From a virus, in IMG/VR virus record IMGVR_UViG_3300044712_000336, positions 1 to 64,000 of that record: a stretch of 64,000 bases of DNA; one strand, written 5' to 3'. Shown piece after piece: positions 15,783-45,758 of the stretch; position 1 is the first letter of the stretch, and each line of letters opens with the position of its first letter. The position numbers and the translations under genes are program-made. The notes beneath the pieces were generated by a model. The model made no database searches. It saw nothing but the letters and a program-made list of their open reading frames with translations, and was not told the origin of the DNA.

Positions 15783-16610
15783 CTATATTCCAATTAATAT
15801 CTCCTCCGAAGGATCAACTCTCTCATCAAGTGCAATCTGTATATCTGATAATGATATAGTATTACACATTTCTATATTATAAGATCTATCTTCCTTCAGG
15901 ATAATTATCCTCGATTCTTCAAACATATCTGGTTGTATATGAAGTATTCTTCCATTATCTAATATAATATTACCTAATAAACGATATGTTCCAAGTTGTA
16001 TCTCATAATGAGATCGTTTACATTGTGGATACTTCTTGAATGGATCTTTTGGATATTTATTATATGTTTTATCTATGTCGGAAGATGTCTTCCAATCCAT
16101 TATACAATACTTACCTGTATGTATATTTTGTATTAACCTATCAATAGTACCTGCAAGTTTATATCGTTTACTATATACTTTAAGTTCATTACCGATTAGT
16201 CGGTATGTTTTAGATGAATCTTTGATAAATTTTACTACTGCATATTCCTTATTAAACATTGGTATAGTTGATGTAGGATCTAAGTCATACATCTCTGAGA
16301 ATATATGTAATCCTGTTCCATAGGATGTAGCCCTATTACTATTAAGGTTCCAGTAATGTACCCTCTGTTGTGGTGTTAATGTGTTTACTATACCTTTCTT
16401 ATTATTAGATGAGGTTAATCCTACTGACACACCTAATGGATTAAATGGTTTCTCAAATGTATTTATCCATGATGTTACACGATCTAAATATGTGTTATCA
16501 ATTTTATATTTGTTTACCGTAGGATCAAGGATTATTTTATCTTCTCTTATTGTAGGAACATGTTTATACTTACTATCACTTGTAGATACACCTTTCGTAA
16601 TTTTTGCCAT
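15783..16610 (-). CDS. PD-(D/E)XK nuclease, RecB/Cas4-like
   Basis: A 275-residue nuclease, first gene of the minus arm. Core motifs are in order: H102 (GLHIFSE, the RecB-type His), D157 in LAGTIDRL, D172-W-K174 in YCIMDWKTS, and a Gln-Tyr helix (YEIQLGTYRLL, about 203-213). The four-Cys iron-sulfur cluster of Cas4 is absent. Such enzymes trim DNA ends during recombination or replication, and crAss-like phages commonly carry one. A good promoter about 45 nt upstream suggests it is among the first minus-strand genes transcribed. Confidence 0.88.
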   Translation of the reverse strand: MAKITKGVSTSDSKYKHVPTIREDKIILDPTVNKYKIDNTYLDRVTSWINTFEKPFNPLGVSVGLTSSNNKKGIVNTLTPQQRVHYWNLNSNRATSYGTGLHIFSEMYDLDPTSTIPMFNKEYAVVKFIKDSSKTYRLIGNELKVYSKRYKLAGTIDRLIQNIHTGKYCIMDWKTSSDIDKTYNKYPKDPFKKYPQCKRSHYEIQLGTYRLLGNIILDNGRILHIQPDMFEESRIIILKEDRSYNIEMCNTISLSDIQIALDERVDPSEEILIGI

Positions 16611-17002
16611 ATTTTAATTTATTATTGTTTCTAATTTTTTTAGTTATAATTAACGATGCAAAAATATATCATTAAATTTAGTTATGCAAATTCATTGATG
16701 GGAATTATGGTTTGTAATTTTTTAGTATAGTTGGTATGATGTATAATGTACTATATTAAGTAGTATAGGTAGTAAAAAATAATTTTTCCAAAATTTTTAT
16801 ATATTGAATAAATATAGTAAAATTTTTAATTTTTTTATATAAAACAAATATGTAGTACCATCCACACTCAAAACCACCTATACCTTTAGCATTGACACAT
16901 AGGGGGAGTACTGAATTGTGGTACATTATCATAAAACATATTACCCCTTTATATTGTCAAGCAAAATATGTGTTTAGTATTAATCCATTAAAAATAGAAA
17001 CA
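16611..17002. promoter_or_regulatory. Divergent AT-rich control region
   Basis: The only place where the two arms point away from each other. It is almost pure A/T from about 16,740 to 16,850 with homopolymer runs. The segment 16,854-16,990 holds inverted pairs: TATAGGT near 16,765 against ACCTATA near 16,875, and AGGGG against CCCCT around 16,902-16,951. Features expected of a replication origin or early control region are present, but no iterons or DnaA boxes are seen. The frame that extends the first plus gene upstream to 16,892 is ignored, because the ATG at 17,003 has the better A-rich leader. Confidence 0.55.
16659..16690 (-). promoter_or_regulatory. Bacteroides-type promoter, minus arm
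   Basis: On the minus strand: TTTG, exactly 20 nt, TATTTTTG. Both boxes fit the Bacteroidetes sigma consensus TTTG, N19-21, TAnnTTTG. Transcription would start near 16,652, about 40 nt before the nuclease start codon. Confidence 0.7.
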
Positions 17003-17662
17003 ATGGAATATTTACAAGATTTAAAAAATGTAGTGTTACCAAGTAACGCTATTTTCCAAGGTGTAATAGATAGTAACACTGGGAAATCTTTATCAAGTAA
17101 ATTGGCGTTTTTGCCAAGACTTGATGCTGAAAGTGTATTGTGTTTAGTAACAATTAACGGTGTTATCAGTGCGCCTGTTGATGTTAATACCCAAATGATG
17201 AACTGGTTATCAAAGGTAAAAAACAAACTTAATAACAAGTTTGCTAATATGATACCTGAGTATATTAAGGGTTCTGGTAGTGCTGTTTGGGCTCAATATT
17301 GCAGTAAAATTGAAGACGGTTATAATGGCTTACTTTCACAAAGTGAGAAAGACCAGTTGCCAAAACCAAGTGTAATCCGTGAAAGTATTTCTATACTTGG
17401 TGAACTTAAAAATGTACCGGAACCTGTAAAGATTTTAGGTATCACAAAAGTAGATGGACAAACTCTCTTACCAGTTCCTAAAACTCTTATTGAGGTAAAA
17501 GAGAGTGGCTGCACCCTTAAATTTGAAGTAGGTCAAACATTCAACATTCTTATTAAGAAAGTTGACAGTACAACCTATTTACAAATGGATTGTGTGCCGT
17601 TGACACCTGAACAAGTAACCAGTTTTAAAACTGTGAAAGTTCCTGAGAAAGTGGAAGCATAG
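17003..17662 (+). CDS. First plus-arm gene, unknown function
   Basis: A 219-residue soluble protein starting MEYLQDLKNVVLPSNAIFQG. It has an alpha/beta N-terminal part, a central helical segment (residues 65-130) and a beta-rich C-terminus (VKESGCTLKFEVGQTFNILI). Codon use is less AT-biased than in the replication block, which suggests strong early expression. The start is chosen because the ATG follows an A-rich leader typical of this genome. It ends in a TAG stop and is followed by a 12-bp hairpin. No family is recognised; an early host-takeover role is only suggested by location. Confidence 0.75.
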   Translation: MEYLQDLKNVVLPSNAIFQGVIDSNTGKSLSSKLAFLPRLDAESVLCLVTINGVISAPVDVNTQMMNWLSKVKNKLNNKFANMIPEYIKGSGSAVWAQYCSKIEDGYNGLLSQSEKDQLPKPSVIRESISILGELKNVPEPVKILGITKVDGQTLLPVPKTLIEVKESGCTLKFEVGQTFNILIKKVDSTTYLQMDCVPLTPEQVTSFKTVKVPEKVEA

Positions 17663-17675
17663 TTTGTGTTAAGTT

Positions 17676-17718
17676 TAGATAGTGATAATGGGTAGTAACA
17701 TCCACCTATCACTATCTA
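17676..17718 (+). other. 12-bp stem downstream of first early gene
   Basis: TAGATAGTGATA pairs perfectly with TATCACTATCTA around a 19-nt loop. It starts 14 nt after the stop codon. There is no U-run, so it more likely stabilises the mRNA 3' end or marks processing than terminates. Confidence 0.55.
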
Positions 17719-18166
17719 CTCTTAATATTTTATCTTATTATATTCACATACAACTAAGGCGAACTATAATTTTATATCCTTCGGAAATTCTGAGATTCTG
17801 ATAATTAGAATTGACATTAACTATAAATATCATTAAACATTTTTGTTTAGTATTATTTATCTTTCGGGAATAGTTATGGTTATCCTATGGATCAGTAATT
17901 TATCAAATTTCGGATATACAGGTCTTTTATTCTTTTATTATTTAATGCAGCTATATCCAAAAAGATATAAGAGTTACAAGCCTCTATAAATGCAGAGTAA
18001 GTAATAATAAGCACCTACTATTCCATACAGCATGATGGAGTATTATAAGCCTTTTCCCAGATTACAAGAGTAATTACTTGTAATGTAAGAATAGATTATC
18101 TAAATAAGAGAGTAATTAACTCAAATAGGATAATTGATGGATAATACGTGATTGTTCTACACATAG

Positions 18167-18187
18167 TAGTTGTTTTTAAAACAACTA
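18167..18187 (+). other. 9-bp hairpin
   Basis: TAGTTGTTT pairs with AAACAACTA around a three-base loop. It lies 120 nt before the next start codon in non-coding DNA. Confidence 0.45.
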
Positions 18188-18309
18188 AATGAAGTTGTAC
18201 CATTGGTTTGTATATTAAACTAAGCAGAAAATCTTAGTATAAATTAAAGTATCAAAGAACCTGAACTACAACAGTAAATGTAGTGTATTGTACTTACCCG
18301 AAGTATAAT

Positions 18310-18816
18310 ATGAGTAAAAATAGTGGTTTAAGGACTGCAAGGGATGATATTATGGCTAATATGTCAGCACAAATAGTACGTGAAATAGTTGCTTCTTCAC
18401 TTAAAATAAAAGCAACTAATGTTATTCTTAGCAGTGTATTACCTGAAAACTTCTGCGTTGAAGCAGTAAGTACATCAGGTTGTATGTATTCAAACTCTAA
18501 CGATTGTAGAGTTTGGGCATTTAATCCACAACAAGGATTGGTATTATTGCAGCAATCTGTTATTACAGAAAATGCTGCAAGTAATGCTAATGGTACTTGG
18601 GAAAACTCTTATGGATATACTTTTGAAATGCTTGCAGAACAAGCACCAGAAGCTATCTTCTTTGTAGTTATGGAAAGTTCAGATTACTCAGATTGTAATG
18701 GTAGAGATGAACATTCTATAAGTTATACATTATACAAAGCTCCAGACTTTAAAAGTCATTGGGCTAAAATCCAACAAGAAGCCATTGCTCGTTGGGAGCA
18801 ATGGTTGAACTCATAA
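18310..18816 (+). CDS. Hypothetical protein, 168 aa
   Basis: A soluble protein starting MSKNSGLRTARDDIMANMS. The N-terminal 45 residues are helical; a beta-rich core follows with two close Cys pairs (STSGCMYSNSNDCRVW) and many Asn/Ser. The C-terminus is an amphipathic helix with Trp (SHWAKIQQEAIARWEQWLNS). An upstream in-frame ATG at 18,283 would add nine residues but has a poor leader. It is isolated in the structured non-coding region and followed 2 nt later by a hairpin. Function unknown. Confidence 0.7.
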   Translation: MSKNSGLRTARDDIMANMSAQIVREIVASSLKIKATNVILSSVLPENFCVEAVSTSGCMYSNSNDCRVWAFNPQQGLVLLQQSVITENAASNANGTWENSYGYTFEMLAEQAPEAIFFVVMESSDYSDCNGRDEHSISYTLYKAPDFKSHWAKIQQEAIARWEQWLNS

Positions 18817-18817
18817 T

Positions 18818-18853
18818 CTAACAGGCATTTCTTAGGAATGTAAGACCTGTTAG
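18818..18853 (+). other. Hairpin after the 168-aa gene
   Basis: CTAACAGG pairs with CCTGTTAG, and CATTTC/GGAATG continues inside. It begins one base after the stop codon. There is no U-run. Confidence 0.5.
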
Positions 18854-18880
18854 TTTATAGTTAATATCATATATAATATC

Positions 18881-18913
18881 TTATAACAAAGTTGTATCTA
18901 ATCTTTGTTATAA
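18881..18913 (+). ncRNA. Candidate RNA hairpin, 11 bp
   Basis: TTATAACAAAG pairs perfectly with CTTTGTTATAA around an 11-nt loop. It abuts the next branched element, so the two may be parts of one transcript. Confidence 0.45.
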
Positions 18914-18971
18914 CTATCAGTAGATGTACTGATGTAGGCTATTTGGGTCAATAGCTGAAATGAATAGATAG
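18914..18971 (+). ncRNA. Candidate three-way-junction RNA
   Basis: CTATC/GATAG closes two hairpins: CAGTA-GATG-TACTG and GCTATT-TGGGTC-AATAGC. Perfect helices in tandem without an open frame support a folded RNA of unknown role. Confidence 0.4.
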
Positions 18972-19011
18972 TGGTGCATGACTGCTCAAACCAATTAAAC
19001 TTAAAAATAAA

Positions 19012-19092
19012 ATGATAATAGCATTTGTACTGTGTGCAGTAGGATTTGGTATAATAGTTATATCTAAATCTTCAAAAGTAAGAAATTACTAA
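19012..19092 (+). CDS. Tiny single-pass membrane peptide, 26 aa
   Basis: Reads MIIAFVLCAVGFGIIVIS followed by a basic Lys/Arg tail (KSSKVRNY). It is one hydrophobic helix with positive charges after it. The ATG follows the A-rich leader TTAAAAATAAA used by other genes here. It is one of several tiny membrane peptides in this phage; it could act on the host envelope. Confidence 0.5.
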   Translation: MIIAFVLCAVGFGIIVISKSSKVRNY

Positions 19093-19209
19093 TGTCTTAG
19101 GTATATACACATTTATTGGATAAATACCAATCATGTGTATGTCTTAAGGATAAACTAAAAGATGTTTAATTGAAAACAATATAAGTATTACAATATAAGA
19201 GGAAGAAGT

Positions 19210-19269
19210 CTATTGTTACATGCCGTGATAGGGCAAAAATACTATAATACTATCAAACCAAACTCAATA
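19210..19269 (+). ncRNA. Candidate structured RNA, nested stems
   Basis: CTATTG/CAATAG encloses TGATAG/CTATCA with a 9-10 nt internal loop on each side. Non-coding on both strands. Confidence 0.4.
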
Positions 19270-19306
19270 GAGCAACTCACAAATCTTTGAGTAATACTAA
19301 ACTTAT

Positions 19307-19421
19307 AGTAACAAGTAATAGAGTAATAAAGCAGAGGCAAAATGAATAAGTCCTAAAATGGTTGCCCGGAATAGTTGCTCAACTCGTGAGCCGACCACTG
19401 AGACTACAATTACTTGTTACT
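19307..19421 (+). ncRNA. Candidate structured RNA, 13-bp closing helix
   Basis: AGTAACAAGTAAT pairs perfectly with ATTACTTGTTACT across 89 nt. Inside are GGCAA/TTGCC and the stable hairpin GCTCA-ACTCG-TGAGC, giving a multibranch fold with a G+C-rich core in an otherwise A/T-rich region. That contrast argues for selection on RNA structure. Confidence 0.55.
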
Positions 19422-19427
19422 TACTTT

Positions 19428-19518
19428 TAATGATTGATACTACTTCTAATATGTACAATCTGGTATGGATGTAGTGCTTTAATTAGCCATCATAATCAAG
19501 TCAGATTATTAATCATTA
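19428..19518 (+). ncRNA. Candidate structured RNA
   Basis: TAATGATT/AATCATTA is the outer helix, AATCTG/CAGATT (19,457-19,462 with 19,502-19,507) the middle one, and GATG/CATC lies inside. Three coaxial helices are separated by internal loops. Confidence 0.45.
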
Positions 19519-19529
19519 TTTAATACGAT

Positions 19530-19603
19530 GATTGATATACAAACCCCCACTAAGTCCGTTTGGCGGTTTTAATACCCATGAATTGTCATGGAGTATATCA
19601 ATC
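19530..19603 (+). ncRNA. Candidate structured RNA, branched
   Basis: GATTGATATAC pairs with GTATATCAATC (11 bp). Inside are AAACC/GGTTT holding CCG-TTTGG-CGG, and the hairpin CCATGA-ATTG-TCATGG. A clear three-way junction. Confidence 0.55.
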
Positions 19604-19612
19604 GTTACATAT

Positions 19613-19696
19613 AAAACAGTTAATAAAAGTGTCGGCATATATCAAGATCATACTTGTACCTAACTTGATATAGTATTATTAGGTGTTAACTGTTTT
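19613..19696 (+). ncRNA. Candidate structured RNA, 11-bp closing helix
   Basis: AAAACAGTTAA pairs with TTAACTGTTTT, enclosing an 8-bp helix ATATCAAG/CTTGATAT. No coding potential. Confidence 0.5.
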
Positions 19697-19711
19697 TAAC
19701 TTGAATTAATT

Positions 19712-19810
19712 ACATCCTTAAAGGTTAAGAGCTTTACTTAATAAAAACTACATTAAATATTAGTAGTAATAAAAAAGTTCTGTATAGACTAAGAAATACA
19801 GTAAGGATGT
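19712..19810 (+). ncRNA. Candidate structured RNA upstream of tRNA-like element
   Basis: ACATCCTTA pairs with TAAGGATGT (9 bp) around at least two hairpins, ACTAC/GTAGT and CTGTAT/ATACAG. It ends 14 nt before the tRNA-like acceptor stem. Confidence 0.5.
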
Positions 19811-19824
19811 TTAAGATATAAAAT

Positions 19825-19890
19825 GGACTATATCATAAGATTGATCACTTATGATATTGGAGAATATTGGTTCGAATCCAATTATAGTCC
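19825..19890 (+). tRNA. tRNA-like element lacking a D-arm
   Basis: GGACTATA pairs with TATAGTCC (8-bp acceptor) and a perfect T-arm, ATTGG-TTCGAAT-CCAAT, is present. Between them is one arm only: a 7-bp stem TCATAAG/CTTATGA with the 8-nt loop ATTGATCA, then an 11-nt linker. A normal D-arm does not fit. If the loop is an anticodon loop, GAT after TT would be the anticodon, but position 37 would be an odd C. The 3' end reads CCCAAT, with no encoded CCA tail. It may be a minimal tRNA, a decayed tRNA or a tRNA mimic. Confidence 0.5.
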
Positions 19891-19929
19891 CAATAATAAA
19901 TCTAAAAGTAATAATTAAAACTTAAAGAA

Positions 19930-20550
19930 ATGAAAAAGAAATGTAAAGTAGTGAGGCTTCCTACAGAAAAAGCAACGTGGTCTAATTGTATTTGGTTAAG
20001 TAGAATTAATAATCAATTAAGATTAGATAAATCTTATAATATGTTACCCCAACATCTTTATATTATTTCAGACGATGAAGTTAAAGAAGGTGATTGGTTT
20101 ATCAATGAACAAATTGATGGAGATAAAGTTATTTGGCAACATAATGGAAATATTATACCTAATAGCAACCCTAAAAAGATTATCGCTACAACTGATAATA
20201 GTATTGGTATAAAACCATTTACCGTATTTCCTCAACCATCACCACAATTCATTCAAAAGTATATTGATGAATGGAATAAAGGTAATAAGATTGAATGGGT
20301 TAATTTGGAATATGAAGCTATTCCTAATGAATTTGATAATCCTTTTACTAATCCTAAAGGATTGGATAATTTTGAAGATGCTAAATGGGAACTCAAAGTT
20401 GACAAAAACAATTACATAACCCTTACTAAGATTAAGGATAACTGGAATAGAGAAGAAGTAATTCAATTACTTCAATCTTATAGAGAGTTTGTATGGGGAA
20501 ATGGTGCAACTCTATTTGATTGTACTAAATGGATTGAAGAAAATTTATAA
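19930..20550 (+). CDS. Hypothetical protein with KIIATTD motif
   Basis: A 206-residue protein of a type common in Bacteroides phages. It has an N-terminal beta-rich part with YIISDDEVKEGDWFIN, then KKIIATTDNSIGIKPF, an amphipathic helix (PQFIQKYIDEWNKGN), and an acidic beta segment (IEWVNLEYEAIP). The 146-aa product two genes downstream carries the related NKIIATTNPSLPLPQI, so the two are paralogous at least in this core. The C-terminal helix is WGNGATLFDCTKWIEENL. Function unknown. Confidence 0.75.
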   Translation: MKKKCKVVRLPTEKATWSNCIWLSRINNQLRLDKSYNMLPQHLYIISDDEVKEGDWFINEQIDGDKVIWQHNGNIIPNSNPKKIIATTDNSIGIKPFTVFPQPSPQFIQKYIDEWNKGNKIEWVNLEYEAIPNEFDNPFTNPKGLDNFEDAKWELKVDKNNYITLTKIKDNWNREEVIQLLQSYREFVWGNGATLFDCTKWIEENL

Positions 20551-20555
20551 AATAT

Positions 20556-20673
20556 AAAGAATAACTAATGAGGTTATGGGTATTCTCTAAAGCGTGTACA
20601 AGAGAATCAAGGCTATTGGGGATAAACTGAACAAGGCATGATATGTCAGTAATCCGGTAATTAGTTATTCTTT
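20556..20673 (+). ncRNA. Candidate structured RNA, 14-bp closing helix
   Basis: AAAGAATAACTAAT pairs perfectly with ATTAGTTATTCTTT. Inside, ATTCTCT/AGAGAAT forms a 7-bp hairpin, followed by a G-rich linker (CTATTGGGGATAAAC) that could make further contacts. It starts 6 nt after a stop codon. Confidence 0.6.
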
Positions 20674-20680
20674 ACAATAT

Positions 20681-20779
20681 AACAACTTAATGAAGAACAC
20701 ACTTACCTTAAATAAGTAAGAGAAGTTAGTGCAAGATACTTTAAGTATAAGCATGATAGTGAAATGTAATTAAGTTGTT
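20681..20779 (+). ncRNA. Candidate structured RNA, 11-bp closing helix
   Basis: AACAACTTAAT pairs with ATTAAGTTGTT. Inside are CTTAC/GTAAG and ATACTT/AGTAT hairpins. It follows the previous element with a 7-nt spacer. Confidence 0.55.
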
Positions 20780-20784
20780 TATTT

Positions 20785-20964
20785 ATACGATATAGGACAG
20801 TATATATAATATACAATATTAAATTATACACAATATATCAAAGTATAGTTAATTTAATATAGGACAATTTATTTTGAATGATTATTTTAAGACATTTAGG
20901 TTGTGAAATCGAAGCGGATATGTAATACATTCAATAGAATGTTCCATTATTGGTTATATCGTAT
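20785..20964 (+). ncRNA. Candidate structured RNA, leader of next gene
   Basis: ATACGATATA pairs with TATATCGTAT across 160 nt, and inside ATATTAAATTA pairs with TAATTTAATAT. TATAGGACA occurs twice, just inside the outer helix and just after the inner one. It ends 23 nt before a start codon, so it may be a 5' regulatory leader. Confidence 0.45.
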
Positions 20965-20987
20965 GTCAAATTTAAAAACTAATTGAA

Positions 20988-21221
20988 ATGCAAATTCTAA
21001 AAAATAAACAAAGAAACTCATTTATTATCATAGATAATTATATGGTAGTATTACACGCAGAATGTCATAGAGATGAAGGATTTATTGAATATTACCATAA
21101 AGATAGTGTTCATAATTGTCTTGAGGATATTAATGACTATGAAGAATGTAATAATACATTTGGAATAAGTCAAGTAATAGATACTATTATTACATTATTA
21201 ATTATTACTAATAAGATTTAA
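20988..21221 (+). CDS. Hypothetical protein, 77 aa
   Basis: The N-terminus is basic (MQILKNKQRNSF), then a beta hairpin and a His/Asp/Glu-rich middle with three Cys, ending with a hydrophobic helix (VIDTIITLLIITNKI) that might be a membrane tail. It sits 12 nt upstream of the next gene and is probably cotranscribed. Function unknown. Confidence 0.55.
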   Translation: MQILKNKQRNSFIIIDNYMVVLHAECHRDEGFIEYYHKDSVHNCLEDINDYEECNNTFGISQVIDTIITLLIITNKI

Positions 21222-21233
21222 AAATTAAAAACA

Positions 21234-21674
21234 ATGCAAAAACTAATTAAAATATCAGACTATTACTATGTAGTAGATAATAAAGCTGAAATAGTACCAG
21301 AGATTACATGGTGTATTAATAAAAATGAAGATACATTATATATACCTAATTGTGGTACAAGCTCTACTGCTGAGTATTGGAATAAAATAATAGCAACAAC
21401 TAATCCTTCATTACCATTACCACAAATCACTAATGCAAGTGATGATATGGTAGGTAAAGAAGTTGAAGTTGAGTTTAAACCCCTAACATTAATAGATAGT
21501 TATATTTCTGAAATTGCTATTCTAAAACCTATTTCAAAAGGTTTAAGATTACCAGATGATGATATATTTGGAGTAGAAACTTCAATTAATGGAACATTAG
21601 AAGAAGTTGATAAAGAGTATAGTGAAGATGAAGTATTAGCGTTATGGAAACTTGTGATAACAAATCTTGTGTAA
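21234..21674 (+). CDS. Hypothetical protein with KIIATTN motif
   Basis: A 146-residue Bacteroides-phage type protein. The signature WNKIIATTNPSLPLPQI lies at about residues 50-66; a beta-rich EVEVEFKPL segment and an acidic C-terminus (EEVDKEYSEDEVLALWKLVI) follow. It shares the KIIATT core with the 206-aa product upstream, indicating duplication. Function unknown. Confidence 0.72.
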   Translation: MQKLIKISDYYYVVDNKAEIVPEITWCINKNEDTLYIPNCGTSSTAEYWNKIIATTNPSLPLPQITNASDDMVGKEVEVEFKPLTLIDSYISEIAILKPISKGLRLPDDDIFGVETSINGTLEEVDKEYSEDEVLALWKLVITNLV

Positions 21675-21693
21675 CATGTACACTACGAGGTAT

Positions 21694-21712
21694 ATGTTTA
21701 GTTCGTAAACAT
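21694..21712 (+). other. 7-bp hairpin before small membrane gene
   Basis: ATGTTTA-GTTCG-TAAACAT, 15 nt upstream of the ATG of the 43-aa gene. A possible translation or stability element. Confidence 0.4.
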
Positions 21713-21726
21713 TAAAACTAAATAAT

Positions 21727-21858
21727 ATGATAGCACCATCATTAACAGGAATAGTAATAATTACTATAATAGTAATAATTACTAAGAAGATAAGAAAAGT
21801 AAGTAAAAGTATTACAGGTGTAACAAGCATTTGTAAAATGTTGGATAACAAAAACTAA
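21727..21858 (+). CDS. Small membrane protein, 43 aa
   Basis: MIAPSLTGIVIITIIVIIT is a single membrane helix, followed by a basic stretch (KKIRKVSKS) and a short polar tail. Positive charges after the helix predict a cytoplasmic C-terminus. The ATG has an AATAAT leader. Its role could be host membrane modification or superinfection exclusion; unknown. Confidence 0.5.
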   Translation: MIAPSLTGIVIITIIVIITKKIRKVSKSITGVTSICKMLDNKN

Positions 21859-22130
21859 ACATAATAAATAGTTGGGTATGTGATGAGTAATTGGATAACC
21901 TTAATACGAAAGTATTGATATTGGTTCGAGGCTAAACCTATTCACTAACAGTCATAATATTGAAAGATTTATGAGCTATTTATTATTATAAGATAAATTA
22001 TTCTATAATCCAATGAAGGAAATTGTAGAAATACAAGAAGGATACTCAAAAGGGATGCAGATAACCAAAGTCTTAGAAAGGTCTGTATAGAGTAATTTAA
22101 TATCATTCCATCATGGAAGAGATATATAAA

Positions 22131-22193
22131 ACTAACTTGAAATAAACTAAAGACAAAGTGTTCTAAAGTTTAAACAATCTAAGTAAAGTTAGT
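22131..22193 (+). ncRNA. Candidate structured RNA, 8-bp closing helix
   Basis: ACTAACTT pairs with AAGTTAGT, and AAACT/AGTTT lies inside. Non-coding. Confidence 0.35.
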
Positions 22194-22200
22194 GGTGGCA

Positions 22201-22276
22201 GCATATATTATAAAGAAATAAGTGAAATAATCATTAGATTTTTCATAGAGAACTTATCATTTTTATAATACTATGC
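22201..22276 (+). ncRNA. Candidate long hairpin RNA
   Basis: GCATATATTATAAA pairs with TTTATAATACTATGC except for a one-base bulge, and ATAAGT/ACTTAT continues the helix inside. Twenty pairs in total over 76 nt. Confidence 0.5.
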
Positions 22277-22303
22277 CTTATTACTAGTAATAGTAATATA
22301 GTA

Positions 22304-22320
22304 GTTGTTATTATAACAAC
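22304..22320 (+). other. 7-bp hairpin
   Basis: GTTGTTA-TTA-TAACAAC, 50 nt upstream of the start of the 52-aa membrane gene. Confidence 0.4.
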
Positions 22321-22369
22321 ATTGTGCAGCGAGTTGATGACTTCGCAATATTAACTAATATCTGAACTC

Positions 22370-22528
22370 ATGGAAATATCATTTGCAATTCTGTTCATAT
22401 TGTTATGTGGACAGATATACTTCTATAAAGGAAGTAAAAGAGATAAACTTATTATTGGTGGATGTATAATAGGATTGATTATAATAACAATATTAAAGTC
22501 AATCTTAACATTCCATTATGTAATATAA
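22370..22528 (+). CDS. Two-helix membrane protein, 52 aa
   Basis: Two hydrophobic segments, ISFAILFILLCGQIYFY and LIIGGCIIGLIIITILKSI, are separated by a basic loop (KGSKRDK). This hairpin topology has both ends on the outer side by the positive-inside rule. It resembles small phage envelope proteins in size. The loss of A-rich leader quality makes the start slightly uncertain. Confidence 0.55.
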   Translation: MEISFAILFILLCGQIYFYKGSKRDKLIIGGCIIGLIIITILKSILTFHYVI

Positions 22529-22530
22529 TA

Positions 22531-22600
22531 TAAAGACTACCTGTAGGAACATTATAAATTAGTTTAACATCGTTTTTACACTTACAGGTAGAATCTTTTA
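22531..22600 (+). ncRNA. Stem-closed element after membrane gene
   Basis: CTACCTGTA pairs with TACAGGTAG, extended by AAAGA/TCTTT. It begins 2 nt after the stop codon; the downstream side is TCTTTTA, so it could act as a weak terminator. Confidence 0.5.
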
Positions 22601-22612
22601 ATATCATTATTG

Positions 22613-22645
22613 TAGGAATATGTTATTAAGTAATAAGTATTCCTA
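22613..22645 (+). ncRNA. Hairpin element, 8 bp plus inner stem
   Basis: TAGGAATA pairs with TATTCCTA, with TTATTA/TAATAA continuing inside. Confidence 0.4.
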
Positions 22646-22734
22646 TATTGGAAAAGTTATATATCAATGCTGGAATATAAGATAAATAATAATATCTGAT
22701 TATCAAGTAAAAGCATTTTTGCCAGTTATTATTA

Positions 22735-22786
22735 ATTATAAAGTGTTGATAAACACTCCGTTTTGTAAAAACGGTGTCTTTATAAT
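22735..22786 (+). ncRNA. Compact three-way-junction RNA candidate
   Basis: ATTATAAAG pairs with CTTTATAAT and encloses GTGTT-GATA-AACAC and the 7-bp, G+C-containing hairpin CCGTTTT-GTA-AAAACGG. All three helices are perfect within 52 nt, one of the most convincing RNA folds in the window. Confidence 0.6.
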
Positions 22787-22978
22787 AAATAAATGATTTC
22801 TTAATATGCAAATTCTATGTATAATTATTTTTGTTATATATTTATACTCGATTTAAGACACTCAATTTTAATCTGGATAACTAATACTAATCCTTAAAAA
22901 TAATGTCTAAAATCAAACCAGACGATATAAAAATGGGTATTCTAATGTCCAGAAATTATCCATAAATTATCCATAAAT

Positions 22979-22999
22979 GAAGGTTCAATCTTAACCTTC
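22979..22999 (+). other. 7-bp hairpin
   Basis: GAAGGTT-CAATCTT-AACCTTC followed by an A/T-rich stretch; a possible weak terminator. Confidence 0.4.
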
Positions 23000-23119
23000 A
23001 CATTTTCAACATTTTAAACTCGAAGCCTAATATTAATAGTTAATATGATGGTCTGCAATCCTAAGCCAATTGCACTGATGATGATAGCTTAAAGTTAATA
23101 ACAATTAAAACATAATAAA

Positions 23120-23434
23120 ATGAATATAACTAATGTAAAAAGTGAATTATTAGAATTTCTAAAAGGTTTACCAAAAGTGAAATGTGCTACTATTTCCTAT
23201 AACATTGGTAATGGTATAAACCCAAAAGAAATTCTTTTAAAAGTAGGATATTCTGAATCTGAATATTCTGAATTTTTAAAGAATTTAGATTTTACTTATA
23301 ATGCAAGTCTTACTGGTGATTTATCCGGAACAATTTGGTTTGTAGATAATACCTGGTGTGAAAGAGAAGAATGTGATTATTCAGAGTGGTGGGAACATAA
23401 ATATTGCCCAGAAATACCAAAAGAGTTACAATAA
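23120..23434 (+). CDS. Hypothetical protein, 104 aa
   Basis: A small soluble acidic protein. The N-terminus is helical (VKSELLEFLKGLPKVKC), the middle resembles a helix-turn-helix turn (PKEILLKVGYSESEYSEFLKNL), and the C-terminus is rich in Trp, Cys and acidic residues (WCEREECDYSEWWEHKYCPEI). The Cys and His there could bind metal. The function is unknown; a small regulator is conceivable. Confidence 0.65.
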   Translation: MNITNVKSELLEFLKGLPKVKCATISYNIGNGINPKEILLKVGYSESEYSEFLKNLDFTYNASLTGDLSGTIWFVDNTWCEREECDYSEWWEHKYCPEIPKELQ

Positions 23435-23505
23435 ACACATAAGTAAATTTGTTATGCTGAATTATGGTGAAATACATTTGAGATAATTTGTTTATTACTT
23501 GTGTT
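23434..23505 (+). other. Stem-closed segment after 104-aa gene
   Basis: AACACATAAGTAA pairs with TTACTTGTGTT with a two-base bulge, starting at the stop codon. An A-run follows, so on the minus strand it would look like a terminator. Confidence 0.4.
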
Positions 23506-23747
23506 AAAAAAGAAAAAAAATCAAAACTACTGAAATGTTATTAATATGCCTCCTTTCTTAATTAATTATAGTTATCACAATATCTTAAATATTTGTGATA
23601 ACCTCCCATTATCTGTTGTGATAATATATAATGGGAATTTCTTATAAACATAATCAAATTTAATGATAATTAAAATTAATGATAAAAATAATCAAAAATA
23701 ATTTAAAACATAATCAAAATGAAGTATAAACTAAAAACTTAAAAGAT
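23435..23747 (+). other. 313-nt leader of the 545-aa gene
   Basis: Contains the two structured elements listed and a repetitive A/T tail with three copies of ATAATCAAA within 70 nt (near 23,648, 23,689 and 23,710). No gene seen. Confidence 0.4.
23571..23636 (+). promoter_or_regulatory. Switch-like double hairpin in mRNA leader
   Basis: GTTATCACAA pairs with TTGTGATAAC; next, TCCCATTAT pairs with ATAATGGGA. The loop of the second hairpin contains another copy, TTGTGATAAT, able to replace the first partner. Two mutually exclusive folds are therefore possible upstream of the 545-aa gene. Confidence 0.4.
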
Positions 23748-25385
23748 ATGAAAATATTAAAAGTTGGTGAAAACATTGAAATATGTGGATTGAAATATAT
23801 TGTATATGATAGTCTATATTGTATGGCTTATAGCGGACATAATAATGAATGTTTTAAAATTATTGATGTAGATAAAAAAAAGTTTACAACAAATATTTTA
23901 GGATATTATAAATCTGGTGATTTTCCATATTGTAATTCATTAGAAGATTTAACCAAACTTGTCAATGCTCTTAATGAAGAGTATGATAGACAACAGGGTA
24001 AAACAGTGGAAAAATTAGTCCAAACAAATATGAATCAAGAGGAAGCTTGCTTTAGTTGTAAATATATAGATAATTGTAATGAAGCACCTCATATAGGAAT
24101 TTGTCCTGCAAGCGATGGGCAACATTATCCAAAAGTTATAGAAGAAACTAAAAAATATGATTTTTCAACAACAATTACTAGAGCTGTAGAAAATAATGAT
24201 CCAAATATTATTGCTATAGAAACTGGTAAAAGTATTAAAGAGTTATGTAAATTAGTAGAAGCTGGTGATAATAAGTGTTTACGTTATAAATTAGACAATA
24301 ATCATTTATATAATTGTGATAATTTAATGTGCTTTCATTGCCCTTTATCTGAATTAACAAGAAATCTGTCAAAATCAGAAATTATATCATGGTTAAAAAG
24401 TAATTCTTTAGAAGTAAAAACACCAGAATTTAAAGTAGGTGATTGGGTAACAATGATACGAAATTATAGTGTTTTACAACCTGGAGAAATATATCAACTT
24501 GTAGAATGTCAAGATATAGAGCATACTTGGTGGTATGTTAATCATCCTACTATTGTTGTAGCTCCTAGAGCTAATAAAGATTTCAGACATGCAACTAAAG
24601 AAGAAATAGAATCTGTAACTAAAACAAATAAACCATTTGAATATAATAAATGGTATAAACAAGGAAATATATTAGAATATTTTTCATCTGAAGATTTATA
24701 TTATGGGTTTGATGTATATGGTAATTGGTTTAGTGGTAAAAGATTAAAAGATGGTTATACTAATGACTATTTACAAATAAATCAATCAAATTTTATTCCT
24801 GTATCAGATGAAGAAGCTAAAGAAAGATTACTTGAATATGCTATAAAGAAACACCCTATTGGCACTAAATTAAAAGAATGTTTACATGGTTGGGTAAGAG
24901 ATACTAAAATAGGTATAATAAAAGGTAAACCATATTGGGATCCTAATGGTATTTGGGCAATGGGATCTATTTATGAATTATGTATTTATCTCGATGGTAA
25001 ATGGGCTGAAATAGAATCTAAACCTATACAAAAAAATTGGGTTAAATGCAATACTCAAGAAGAATGGGATTTTGTATCTAAGAAATTAGGTAGAACTGAC
25101 CCAACTAAGTTTAAAATTTATGGTGATTGTATTAACTTATTATCACCTAATACCGCTAGGTTTAATAAACCAGACGAGTATTATACATTCGAAGAATGGT
25201 TAGAATTAAGTGGTATATCAATAGGTACAGTTGAGTTAGTGGATAATGGAACGATTGAAAGTACCACTATTGAATATATTAAACAACAAGAAGGTACTAA
25301 CAGAAATATTCCTATAGTAGATAATATACAAAACAGGTTCAAAGTTTCACCTGTGAGAAAAAGAAACTTACCAGAAATTTATTAA
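23748..25385 (+). CDS. Large early protein, paralogue of the 657-aa protein
   Basis: A 545-residue modular protein of unknown function. Residues 95-120 hold a Cys cluster (CFSCKYIDNCNEAPHIGICP) that may bind zinc, and a second Cys-rich stretch lies near 175-205 (NCDNLMCFHCPLSE). A module of about 130 residues starting at about 300 (FEYNKWYKQG, then KKHPIGTKLKE and GKWAEIES) matches a module in the 657-aa product encoded at 37.7 kb (FEVDKWYSSK, KKRFPIGTKVR, GKFAEI). The C-terminus is acidic and flexible. It is probably intracellular. Confidence 0.75.
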   Translation: MKILKVGENIEICGLKYIVYDSLYCMAYSGHNNECFKIIDVDKKKFTTNILGYYKSGDFPYCNSLEDLTKLVNALNEEYDRQQGKTVEKLVQTNMNQEEACFSCKYIDNCNEAPHIGICPASDGQHYPKVIEETKKYDFSTTITRAVENNDPNIIAIETGKSIKELCKLVEAGDNKCLRYKLDNNHLYNCDNLMCFHCPLSELTRNLSKSEIISWLKSNSLEVKTPEFKVGDWVTMIRNYSVLQPGEIYQLVECQDIEHTWWYVNHPTIVVAPRANKDFRHATKEEIESVTKTNKPFEYNKWYKQGNILEYFSSEDLYYGFDVYGNWFSGKRLKDGYTNDYLQINQSNFIPVSDEEAKERLLEYAIKKHPIGTKLKECLHGWVRDTKIGIIKGKPYWDPNGIWAMGSIYELCIYLDGKWAEIESKPIQKNWVKCNTQEEWDFVSKKLGRTDPTKFKIYGDCINLLSPNTARFNKPDEYYTFEEWLELSGISIGTVELVDNGTIESTTIEYIKQQEGTNRNIPIVDNIQNRFKVSPVRKRNLPEIY

Positions 25386-42741: not shown

Positions 42742-42908
42742 TGGCTAAAGAAGTAACAACAACAGTAAAGAATCCATCAGGAGCAGTAGTTAAACAATGT
42801 TCTTGTAAACATGAATTTCAAGATGAAATACATGGTAAAGGAATGAGAGTTCATAATGTAACAACTAAAGGTAATAAATGTACTGTATGTGGAAATATTA
42901 ATCGTTAA
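42741..42908 (+). CDS. Small zinc-binding protein, 55 aa
   Basis: Reads MAKEVTTTVKNPSGAVVKQC and has CSCKHEF plus KCTVCGNINR, four Cys and a His that could bind zinc. It overlaps the previous stop by one base (TAATG). It lies directly before the FETNSSSTHS triplet and may belong to that unit. Function unknown. Confidence 0.55.
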   Translation: MAKEVTTTVKNPSGAVVKQCSCKHEFQDEIHGKGMRVHNVTTKGNKCTVCGNINR

Positions 42909-42918
42909 AATAAGTAAA

Positions 42919-43353
42919 ATGATACAAGTAAGGCAAAATGTATTTGAAACTAATAGTTCAAGTACACATAGTGTTAGTATTTCTTATGAAGGTGATTTAA
43001 CAGATATTCCAATACCAGATGATAATGGAATAGTTCATGTAGATACAGATGAATATGGGTGGGAAGAATGTGAATATAATGATTTATATAGTAGATTATC
43101 TTATGCAGCTACTTATGCTTTAAATTATGGAAGTGAAGAAAATAAAGAGTTATTAACTGAAGTTATTAAACAATACAGTGGTGCAAAAGAAGTATTATAT
43201 GATCATAATAATAATCCAGTTTATTGGAAACATGGTTATATAGACCATCAAAGTACAGACACAGTGGCTGATATATTTGAATCAAGAGAAAGTTTAGTTA
43301 ATTTTCTATTTAATCCAAATTCATATTTTATTACAGATAACGATAATCATTAA
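42919..43353 (+). CDS. FETNSSSTHS-motif protein 1
   Basis: A 144-residue protein whose N-terminus MIQVRQNVFETNSSSTHSVS is shared with the two following genes. The start is set by aligning all three at the motif; an upstream GTG is ignored. The remainder is acidic and Tyr-rich and not alignable to its neighbours. The motif recurs at the N-terminus of many phage and Firmicutes proteins of unknown function as I recall it. Adjacency to a radical SAM enzyme suggests the Ser/Thr/His stretch is a modification site or leader; this is a hypothesis. Confidence 0.72.
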   Translation: MIQVRQNVFETNSSSTHSVSISYEGDLTDIPIPDDNGIVHVDTDEYGWEECEYNDLYSRLSYAATYALNYGSEENKELLTEVIKQYSGAKEVLYDHNNNPVYWKHGYIDHQSTDTVADIFESRESLVNFLFNPNSYFITDNDNH

Positions 43354-43357
43354 AATT

Positions 43358-43600
43358 ATGATACAAATAAGAAATTCAATTTTCGAAACTAATTCCATTA
43401 GCACACATAGTATTACTATTTGTACACCAGAAGAATGGAGTAAATTAGAGTCTGGTGACTATGATGGATTAGATGAAAGATTAATAGAGAAGTTTGAAAA
43501 TAATTATAGAGATTCATATATGGAAACATATAGTTATGAAACTACTACTCCGGGTGGTGAAAAAATAAGATTATTTGGAGATTATGGAAGGGATGGTTAA
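43358..43600 (+). CDS. FETNSSSTHS-motif protein 2
   Basis: An 80-residue member: MIQIRNSIFETNSISTHSIT, then CTPEEWSKLESGDYDG, which resembles the longer CTxEEW continuation seen in relatives. The second Ser of the motif is Ile. The C-terminus ends RLFGDYGRDG. It starts 4 nt after protein 1 and overlaps protein 3 by 8 nt. Confidence 0.7.
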   Translation: MIQIRNSIFETNSISTHSITICTPEEWSKLESGDYDGLDERLIEKFENNYRDSYMETYSYETTTPGGEKIRLFGDYGRDG

Positions 43601-44063
43601 TATAAGAAAAAATGTGTTTGAAACAAATAGTAGTTCAACACACTCCATTACTATTGGCAATATAAATTCAAAACCATTAGAATTATTAAAAGATGGTATA
43701 TTAAATCCACAACTACTAATTGATAAATATGTTGCTTATAATTATGAATATAAAATAGTATGTTATAATTTAGAAGAGAAATTAGCGTTAGTAACATTAT
43801 GGATTTTGTGTGATAGATGGAATGTTACTGATGAAATTAGAGAAGAATTATTAAATATAATTAAAGAAGAGTTTAATATAGTTAAAATATTAGATTTAAA
43901 AGAGTTAAGATTTTCTTCACAAGATGATGACGATGATATATTATTTGATTATGGTTATGAAGAAGAAATTGATATTATTTCAACAAAAAAGAAGTTATAT
44001 GAATTAATAAATATTATAAAAGATGACAGTAGATTCATTAGTGATATCAAAGAAGAAAGATAA
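43593..44063 (+). CDS. FETNSSSTHS-motif protein 3
   Basis: A 156-residue protein with MVNIRKNVFETNSSSTHSIT at the start, chosen from three in-frame ATGs by alignment with its paralogues. The body is helical and acidic (EEKLALVTLWILCDRWN, SSQDDDDDILFDYGYEEE). The last 41 nt overlap the radical SAM gene, so translation is coupled. Confidence 0.7.
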   Translation: MVNIRKNVFETNSSSTHSITIGNINSKPLELLKDGILNPQLLIDKYVAYNYEYKIVCYNLEEKLALVTLWILCDRWNVTDEIREELLNIIKEEFNIVKILDLKELRFSSQDDDDDILFDYGYEEEIDIISTKKKLYELINIIKDDSRFISDIKEER

Positions 44064-44937
44064 ATTAGTAGAATATAAAAATGGTAATACTACAGTTACT
44101 ATATATAAAGATGGTACAAAAGTAAGAGAGTTTGAAGGTATTCCAGTAGTGGAACATCCTGAAAGTATGGATATTAAAATTACTAATTATTGTGATTTAG
44201 GATGTCCATATTGCCATGAAAATTCTACTATTAAAGGAAAACATTCAGATTTATTCTTACTAAAGGAAAAATTGGATATACTTCCAGCAGGTATTGAATT
44301 AGCATTAGGTGGTGGTAATCCATTATCTCATCCAAATTTAGTACAATTTTTAGAATGGTGTAAAACTAAGGGATTTATAGCTAATATAACTATTAATGAA
44401 AAACATATAAATAAGTATAATGAATTAATTATAGATTTAATAACAAGAGATTTAGTCAAAGGTATTGGTATATCTGTTACTGAAGGAAATATTAATCTTA
44501 TTAAATCATTATATAAATTATCATCAAATATAGTATTACATTTAATTGTGGGAATAAATACTATTGAACAAATTGAAGAATTATGTACTATAAAAGGTAT
44601 AAAAGTATTATTACTTGGGTACAAAACATTTGGTAGAGGAATATCATACTACTCTCAAGATATAACAGATAATATTAATAAATGGTATAAACATCTTCCT
44701 ACATTAGTAGGAAAGTTAGTATTAAGTTTTGATAATCTGGCTATTGAACAATTAAATGTAAAGAGATTATTTACATCAAAAGGATGGGATAGATTTTATA
44801 TGGGGGATGATTTTACTTTTACTATGTATATTGATGCAGTAGAACAACAATATGCTCCTACAAGTAGATCTGATGATAGACAATCTTTTAAAGATTATAA
44901 TGTAATACAATATTTCAAAACATTTAAAAATAAATAA
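44023..44937 (+). CDS. Radical SAM enzyme
   Basis: A 304-residue radical SAM protein. The 4Fe-4S site is C57-DLG-C61-PY-C64 (CxxxCxxC), followed by the GGE-type element LALGGGNPLSHPNL, which binds SAM. No SPASM or other C-terminal Cys cluster is visible, so there is one cluster only. It would generate a 5'-deoxyadenosyl radical for a difficult modification. It overlaps the third FETNSSSTHS protein and is 1 nt from a P-loop ATPase gene. The substrate is unknown: the upstream motif proteins, tRNA or nucleotides are candidates. Confidence 0.85.
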   Translation: MTVDSLVISKKKDKLVEYKNGNTTVTIYKDGTKVREFEGIPVVEHPESMDIKITNYCDLGCPYCHENSTIKGKHSDLFLLKEKLDILPAGIELALGGGNPLSHPNLVQFLEWCKTKGFIANITINEKHINKYNELIIDLITRDLVKGIGISVTEGNINLIKSLYKLSSNIVLHLIVGINTIEQIEELCTIKGIKVLLLGYKTFGRGISYYSQDITDNINKWYKHLPTLVGKLVLSFDNLAIEQLNVKRLFTSKGWDRFYMGDDFTFTMYIDAVEQQYAPTSRSDDRQSFKDYNVIQYFKTFKNK

Positions 44938-45758
44938 TGGCACAAAGGATAGCAATATTAGGTGAACCAAATTCAGGGAAATCTTATAGTAGATCTTTTA
45001 TAACAAATTCAGATAGTGTATTTGTACTAGCTCCTTCAGATAAGAAGTTATATTTAAAGAAATCTGATGGAAATAGATTAGATTATTTTAATATAAGTAC
45101 ACAAAAATTAAAAACTACTGAAGAAGTAGCAAAAGTATGTAATAAAAATACTGATGATATTTGTGGAATAATTGATGTACTTACTAAAAAAGGTATAGAG
45201 TTTTCCTGTACTGGAAATTATATAGTTAATTATCGTATAGAAGATGCAGGAACAATACTTAATATAATTAGTAGTAAAATGATACATATAAATACAGTAA
45301 TAATTCCAGATTTTACACATTTTATTAGTGCAGAAATAAGTGAAATAGATTTTATTAAACGTAAGTCTGGTGGTGATGCTTTTGCTAAATATTTAGAACT
45401 AGCAGCAAACTCATTAAATTCCTTTATTAAGAGTGTAGATTTATTACGTAAAGATTTAATTGTAGTTACAGAGTATCATATAGAGTATGATGAAATTGAT
45501 GGAAATTATCATATATTTGTTCCTGGAGGCAAGATGATGGTAGAGAAGTTTAAATTAGATAGTTATTATGATTATATATTATATACTAAATATATAGATG
45601 ATAATAATGTAAAATTCAATGATAGGTTTAAATTTGTAGTTAGACGTGATGGAAAATATAATGCACGTTCTTCTGGTATATTCGGTGAACAAATACTAGT
45701 TCCAAACAATTTACAAATTGTATTAGAGAAGGTTAGAGAAGATAATGGTATAAAATAA
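44937..45758 (+). CDS. P-loop ATPase
   Basis: A 273-residue NTPase with Walker A G9-EPNSG-K15-S16 at the extreme N-terminus, an early beta strand (SVFVLAPSDKK), a hydrophobic strand with Asp (NTVIIPDFTHFI) as Walker B, and VVTEYH as a possible sensor. It resembles the small ATPases found in crAss-like replication clusters and T4 UvsX/Rad-like folds only loosely. It overlaps the radical SAM stop by one base. It is the last gene before a promoter and could act in DNA metabolism or with the radical SAM unit. Confidence 0.78.
   Translation: MAQRIAILGEPNSGKSYSRSFITNSDSVFVLAPSDKKLYLKKSDGNRLDYFNISTQKLKTTEEVAKVCNKNTDDICGIIDVLTKKGIEFSCTGNYIVNYRIEDAGTILNIISSKMIHINTVIIPDFTHFISAEISEIDFIKRKSGGDAFAKYLELAANSLNSFIKSVDLLRKDLIVVTEYHIEYDEIDGNYHIFVPGGKMMVEKFKLDSYYDYILYTKYIDDNNVKFNDRFKFVVRRDGKYNARSSGIFGEQILVPNNLQIVLEKVREDNGIK

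Follow-up and report, generated by a model that had tools for sequence, protein, structure and literature searches.

A radical SAM enzyme paired with a conserved N-terminal peptide points to an undescribed tag-modifying or tag-reading system in bacterial viruses

Many unrelated bacterial viruses encode a radical SAM enzyme (rSAM) along with different proteins, between one and six in number, that start with a near-identical stretch of ten residues. This pairing points to a module by which a common protein tag is chemically modified or, at a minimum, read. We consider it probable that the enzyme is a maturase acting on the short N-terminal tag of folded viral proteins, both together representing a two-component viral maturation module.

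Results

Three genes with a common N-terminus precede a radical SAM gene

The window, i.e. the whole stretch of 64,000 nucleotides analysed here, is part of a virus record of 104,710 bp, the left end of which carries head, portal and terminase genes. In line with the preliminary description of this DNA, three consecutive ORFs on the same strand have only the N-terminal element R-x-x-(V/I)-F-E-T-N-S-(S/I)-S-T-H-S in common (Table 1), their bodies forming three mutually unlinked BLAST clusters. The third motif ORF overlaps the rSAM ORF by 41 nucleotides. The identity of the latter as a radical SAM enzyme was corroborated by the sequence CDLGCPYC and by a match to Pfam Radical_SAM (E = 2.8e-7) above the gathering score, whereas the 'GGE-like loop' that had been claimed for it actually reads GGGNPLSHP. 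The start of motif gene 1 was set at the ATG at position 42919, as compared to a GTG at 42889 in the mechanical ORF list. A strict degenerate DNA motif pattern matched the window twice, with 0.00 matches expected from shuffled sequences; copy 2 contains SIS. Nothing indicates that the neighbouring ATPase belongs to the rSAM/motif system. A larger conserved operon including Sak4-like ATPase or replication genes was considered and rejected, the other gene families each occurring at no more than 13% of the related loci.

Table 1. Features of the motif/rSAM locus in the window
Feature	Position	Strand	Sequence and evidence
Motif protein 1, 144 aa, body family 0 (FGWE..YIDH..DNDN)	42919..43353	+	N-terminus MIQVRQNVFETNSSSTHSVSI; PHROG 28997, 5.9e-14
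Core motif copy 1, FETNSSSTHS	42943..42972	+	DNA motif pattern, codon analysis
Motif protein 2, 80 aa, body family 1, C-terminus LFGDYGRDG	43358..43600	+	N-terminus MIQIRNSIFETNSISTHSITI; 85 family members
Core motif copy 2, FETNSISTHS	43382..43411	+	Sequence
Motif protein 3, 156 aa, body family 4 (rare; relatives L191 and L200 only)	43593..44063	+	N-terminus MVNIRKNVFETNSSSTHSITI
Core motif copy 3, FETNSSSTHS	43617..43646	+	DNA motif pattern, codon analysis
Radical SAM enzyme, 304 aa, CDLGCPYC at residues 57-64	44023..44937	+	Pfam PF04055, PHROG 16999, alignments, AF2 model, fold search
P-loop ATPase	44937-45758		Sak4-like ssDNA annealing family, phrog_2872, 1.2e-16

Motif proteins and the enzyme co-occur in both directions

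A scan of 2.9 million IMG/VR contigs with a degenerate VFETN...TH pattern yielded at least 118 viral stretches. Among the 118 motif loci listed, 88 contain the enzyme family within the same stretch, invariably on the same strand (88/88), within 1 kb in 78 loci, and nearly always 3′ of the motif genes. The other 30 motif loci are often short stretches, and in 21 of them the enzyme is located elsewhere in the record; it is therefore present somewhere in the record for 109 of the 118 listed loci. It is absent from nine motif records, four of which are shorter than 15 kb and five longer than 35 kb. In one of them, the very large 597-kb virus record G011 (comprising locus L049), the tagged ORF is short and possibly truncated, and a match to the enzyme was not found; this record may require another genetic code or be incomplete. 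When the same pattern was applied to 84,980 bacterial and archaeal species genomes, 29 stretches were obtained, mostly on contigs of metagenome-assembled genomes and in 22 cases beside the enzyme, which suggests that the system is mainly viral.

For the reverse scan with an enzyme alignment, 80 of the 247 relatives detected were retained, 79 of which represent new loci. A motif protein is encoded within 6 kb of the enzyme at 78 of these, and at the remaining one (L218) two motif proteins are found elsewhere in the same record. Since many of the enzyme-scan loci lie on contigs already found by the motif scan, the two scans are independent searches and not independent samples. Moreover, among the gene families within 5 kb of the enzyme at 60 well-flanked enzyme-scan loci, the enzyme itself is present in 60/60 and the motif-protein cluster in 58/60, followed by the next family in 8/60. 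As only these two families are conserved within 5 kb, they constitute a two-part module and not a longer conserved operon. The preliminary description had named motif proteins occurring widely without an rSAM neighbour as an observation that would refute its interpretation; the scans from either side found the partner in the record for 109 of 118 motif loci and for 79 of 79 enzyme loci, do not refute it, and rule out that the rSAM is a chance neighbour. The suggestion that the motif recurs in other phages likewise proved correct, as it is present in Microcystis phages, Lak megaphages and rumen phages, and in a variant form in T4-like E. coli phages. For Dulem virus 40, which encodes an rSAM with a partial match, the motif was not seen among the translated flanking genes.

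Phage targeting signals are typically N-terminal stretches common to otherwise different proteins, and the N-terminal-only sharing observed here resembles them. The element could hence be a localisation or packaging signal (cf. capsid-targeting sequence, T4 internal proteins) next to an unrelated rSAM gene. However, the reciprocal pairing with one enzyme family in very diverse phages, the matched enzyme and motif variants and the fusions described below, as well as the lack of any other conserved neighbour, largely exclude this explanation by association, and we regard it as very improbable.

Selection acts on the peptide

In 210 unique motif proteins the core motif starts mostly at residue 9 or 10. 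Arginine is present at position -4 of FETN in all cases (205/205), although this position is outside the search pattern, and valine at position -1 in 89%, a figure that is biased because Val was within the search pattern. Every serine position of the tag is encoded by both AGY and TCN codons, the coding 30-mers are distinct in 246 of 261 motif genes, and paralogues within one locus differ over the motif by a mean of 8.5 of 30 nucleotides. The mixed serine codons and the mostly distinct 30-mers indicate that selection acts on the peptide and not on the DNA. Judged from the arrangement alone, duplication could yield tandem paralogues with identical starts, and the peptide might be a by-product of a conserved DNA or RNA element, such as a recombination site or a regulatory element. 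The codon data, however, refute conservation of the tag at the DNA level, and the Rfam search of the window returned no matches; this explanation is hardly tenable.

The tag precedes unrelated folded bodies

The bodies of the motif proteins form two large families (family 0 with 137 and family 1 with 85 members) and many small ones, window protein 1 being a member of family 0, protein 2 of family 1 and protein 3 of a rare family. As many as six different motif proteins, the bodies of which are unrelated, can be encoded at a single locus, and the partners range from 80 to 318 aa in size. The AlphaFold2 model of motif protein 1 (pLDDT 89), in which the first ten residues have a mean pLDDT of 62 and the body is mostly above 90, predicts a flexible N-terminal tail followed by a confidently folded body. 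No solved structure matched the body with E <0.5, and the one viral model matching its fold is of unknown function. As the bodies match no solved fold, body function lends no support to our reading. Likewise, the motif proteins gave no matches above cut-off in Pfam and none in NCBIfam or PADLOC, and PHROG 28997 matches motif proteins with other bodies at the N-terminus only (E 7e-4 to 2e-3).

The C-termini bear on the question of which residues might be modified. An aromatic-Gly pattern, often YGYDG or a near variant, is present at the end of 40 of the 85 family 1 members as compared to 1.5% of background ORFs; moreover, Lw1 gp111 ends with CGGGYDG and some FVTN proteins (see below) with GEGGY or GGWYDG. 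Given that a conserved leader combined with a variable core is the usual RiPP logic, the tag might merely be a recognition leader, the enzyme modifying body residues elsewhere, for instance the aromatic-Asp-Gly C-terminus YGYDG of family 1. In contrast, the commonest bodies, those of family 0, end otherwise (DNDNH, FYKGN) with the pattern present in 1 of 137, no body feature is common to all motif proteins, and the bodies are folded and family-conserved rather than variable cores. We therefore deem the tag unlikely to be a leader only.

Among short tagged proteins, frequent endings are aromatic-(D/N/E)-Gly (YGYDG, CGGGYDG, GGWYDG) or GEGGY.

The enzyme resembles peptide-modifying radical SAM enzymes

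The window rSAM matches PHROG 16999 (5.9e-76). Its relatives are found in Microcystis phage Ma-LMM01 (54%) and in Lak megaphages (40%) and, at low identity, in phages Arash, RM378 and YS40. An alignment of 53 diverse homologues has a mean column identity of 46% and 27 invariant positions. The invariance of the three cluster cysteines across this alignment, the Pfam match above cut-off and the SuiB-like fold place the enzyme in the radical SAM superfamily. In the FETN branch these three are the only conserved cysteines; with none beyond the cluster trio, the branch does not belong to the SPASM/Twitch type. The AlphaFold2 model (pLDDT 94, pTM 0.90) has SuiB, with and without its precursor peptide, as the closest solved fold (E 9.9e-8), followed by BlsE, AbmM, SpeY, EpeE, PqqE, viperins and TigE. 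Thus, the predicted fold is closest to the peptide-modifying rSAMs SuiB and EpeE. For the N-terminal region of the enzyme, a match to a known peptide-binding domain was not found.

Two peculiarities of individual enzyme genes are worth recording. Intein-like insertions seem to split the rSAM gene at L028:3165-4799, after the first cysteines (ECACLSGN ... WLTHNCGGGN), and at L078:2194-4562, within the cluster motif itself (ENILVSNCHENS); inteins are frequent at conserved sites in important enzymes. In addition, a few jumbo-phage rSAM members have a longer spacing between cluster cysteines 1 and 2, which are widely separated, e.g. CEPTSDNPICAFC, in the rSAM ORFs of L039, L062, L024 and L104, mostly from very large phages.

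Enzyme branches and tag variants go together

Two further enzyme branches are accompanied by tags of their own. One tag, FVTNSSSTSF, goes with SPASM-type enzymes of phages, one plasmid and one bacterium, and the other, FVSNSSSSSF, is found in Lw1, RB16 and Vibrio phage D479. A scan with DFVTNSSSTSF yielded 40 viral stretches with highly varied bodies. A SPASM-type rSAM was detected at E<=1e-20 in 21 of 30 FVTNSSSTSF records as compared to 0 of 30 FETN records, and a search of the FVTN records for the FETN-type enzyme gave weak matches (best 9e-15), which coincide with the location of the SPASM enzyme in all records where the latter was detected. The FVTN-branch enzyme contains conserved C-terminal cysteines, and its Agrobacterium member has a SPASM match. 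On the enzyme tree the motif labels require six changes, which is the minimum. Enzyme branch and motif variant thus go together.

Variants of the tag also adjoin the enzyme in more distant lineages. Single-chain fusions in which a TNSSSSH(S/C) motif domain precedes the rSAM are encoded by Arash, Methylobacterium pVL1_2 and Deferribacter pDF308, the motif domains of the former two carrying the family 0 features GWD, YIDHES and GGNDN. In L080 the order is reversed, with the tag domain C-terminal to the rSAM. RM378 encodes a TNSSSSH(S/C)-type domain as a gene separate from the rSAM, whereas a TNSSSASM protein adjoins the rSAM in YS40 and an FVSNSSSTSF protein in Agrobacterium pAt2.

These fusions could mark the motif domain as a partner subunit. 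Accordingly, the motif proteins might be accessory or regulatory subunits that are docked by the tag, with the rSAM acting on another substrate, such as a nucleotide, an RNA or a host protein; consistent with this idea, family 0 is present in 51 of 59 well-flanked loci, and the enzyme core weakly resembles viperins. Up to six partners with unrelated bodies at one locus would, however, be odd for subunits, T4-like phages encode tagged proteins far from the enzyme, and docking does not usually require an invariant stretch of such length and strictness. This role appears improbable to us, to about the same degree as that of a mere leader.

A run of the FVT-N-SSS-type start pattern on 300 genomes of one phylum gave two matches, L238 and L239. 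In L238, the start lies beside a SPASM rSAM. At L239:397-2913 (Bacillota) a MKIRKDFVTNSSSTSFGTAAATGF... protein with a body of about 475 aa is encoded directly 3′ of a candidate enzyme ORF resembling the second branch. This ORF has extra residues between the cluster cysteines (GHCVHGKSGLCLK...) and looks like a diverged relative; judged by sequence, the pair is possibly a cellular form of the system.

Tagged proteins far from the enzyme in named phages

A search of named phages for the SPASM-branch enzyme returned 173 records, mostly of Klebsiella phages and relatives of the E. coli phage RB43. In phages where the motif gene is not near the SPASM enzyme, FVSNSSSSSF proteins are encoded elsewhere in the genome (Matisse, Lw1, RB16). 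Matisse has no motif gene near its enzyme, and the genome search revealed MKIRSGFVSNSSSSSFIIG at a distance of 24 kb. The tagged protein and the enzyme of Matisse were found in 174 records each, with near-identical host-genus counts; among such close relatives the 174/174 pairing counts as one or few evolutionary events. Two tagged proteins are encoded by each of the E. coli phages Lw1 (gp111 and gp116, N-termini MKIRSGFVSNSSSSSF...) and RB16. In Vibrio phage D479, which is more distant (enzyme 54%), there are five, with unrelated bodies.

Discussion

Maturation of an N-terminal tag, the reading that we favour, would proceed as follows. The rSAM would bind several folded phage proteins, which are otherwise unrelated, at their flexible N-terminal tail R-x-x-V-F-E-T-N-S-S-S-T-H-S, and 5′-deoxyadenosyl-radical chemistry would then alter one residue in this tail. 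The likeliest modified site would be the core T-N-S-S-S (S-N-S-S-S in one branch), because the (T/S)-N-S-S-S core is common to all branches, while features of the bodies are not. The reaction may be an oxidation, an epimerisation or a cross-linking of Ser, Thr or Asn. What the data themselves show is co-occurrence from either side, adjacency on one strand, conservation of the tag as a peptide, enzyme branches matched by motif variants, fusions, and an rSAM with intact cluster motif and fold; binding, the modification with its position and chemistry, and the role of the tagged proteins are inferred. A more far-reaching proposal, which we put forward tentatively and with less confidence, is a general viral protein-tagging chemistry, in which rSAMs would put a novel modification on a portable N-terminal T-N-S-S-S tag that is attached by phages to numerous unrelated proteins. 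Such a chemistry would comprise a minimum of three matched enzyme-tag branches, distributed among jumbo phages, T4-like phages, plasmids and bacteria.

The system works like known rSAM maturases, yet it falls outside the definitions of RiPP, anSME and viperin systems and, for the FETN branch, of SPASM enzymes. SuiB/StrB (streptide), EpeE, PqqE and TigE share the rSAM core and are among the best structural matches. SuiB-type RiPP maturases act on ribosomal peptides with a common leader that are encoded beside the enzyme, and a common N-terminus of proteins encoded next to the enzyme is likewise seen here. In contrast to a short precursor comprising a leader and a small variable core, however, the partners described here (80-318 aa), although adjacent and sharing an N-terminus, are largely folded proteins with unrelated, family-conserved bodies, and the FETN branch is devoid of the SPASM cysteines. 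A conserved leader protease or exporter was not found within 5 kb of the enzyme at 60 loci, other families occurring in at most 8 of the 60. The nearest working analogy is anSME/AtsB, an rSAM that oxidises a Ser or Cys residue located in a short motif of folded proteins of full size. Its target C/S-x-P-x-R lies near the sulfatase active site, whereas TNSSS(T/S) is N-terminal in unrelated proteins; FETNSSSTHS does not contain C/S-x-P-x-R, the partners have no sulfatase match, and family-level sequence kinship of the window enzyme with anSME was not found.

Among the NCBIfam models, the mycofactocin maturase (TIGR03962) is most similar to the second-branch enzyme from Agrobacterium (E 9e-21), at a score far below the curated cut-off (74 vs 265 bits). 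Mycofactocin and PQQ (PqqE) maturases also have short peptide partners beside the enzyme, but these represent one small cofactor precursor, while the system described here has many different partners. The window rSAM is not a prokaryotic viperin by score (21.3 bits vs a cut-off of 180), and the PADLOC pVip match covers about 100 residues of the rSAM core only. Pfam and NCBIfam searches of the three window partners for a glycyl radical domain gave no matches, which does not fit a glycyl radical activase. In the curated families, the enzymes have generic rSAM matches only and the motif proteins none. Both PHROG 16999 (Fe-S oxidoreductase) and PHROG 28997 (unknown function) are existing clusters holding the window enzyme and motif protein 1, respectively, and a functional link between the two was not found.

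A literature search retrieved no papers containing FETNSSSTHS, TNSSSTH, TNSSSTS, NSSSTSF, TNSSSSSF or TNSSSSH; subscription journals were mostly outside its scope, so an earlier report is possible. Nothing was found that combines Lak phages or Ma-LMM01 with such a system, and an overview of jumbo phages (PMC7824862) does not mention radical SAM enzymes. Taken together, the data point to an undescribed viral system that modifies or reads a tag. If this is true, phages carry a mobile post-translational modification module, the targets of which are full-size, unrelated proteins with a ten-residue tag. In hundreds of phage records, enzymes labelled just 'Fe-S oxidoreductase' or 'radical SAM protein' would be assigned a function, and a handle would be gained on many phage protein families of unknown function. 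Moreover, a new rSAM reaction would be likely, along with a portable tag for protein engineering. The system is unusually testable because the E. coli phage Lw1, isolated on BL21(DE3), encodes the enzyme gp161 together with the tagged proteins gp111 and gp116.

Further observations in the window

The A+T-rich region 16600-23750 of the window, which separates the structural genes on the left strand from the genes on the right strand, contains few ORFs and many inverted repeats, and searches for tRNA or Rfam matches within it returned none. At positions 23628-23729, just 5′ of the gene at 23748, four overlapping copies of an A+T-rich repeat are present, partly with a spacing of 22 nucleotides, which are possibly replication or control iterons.
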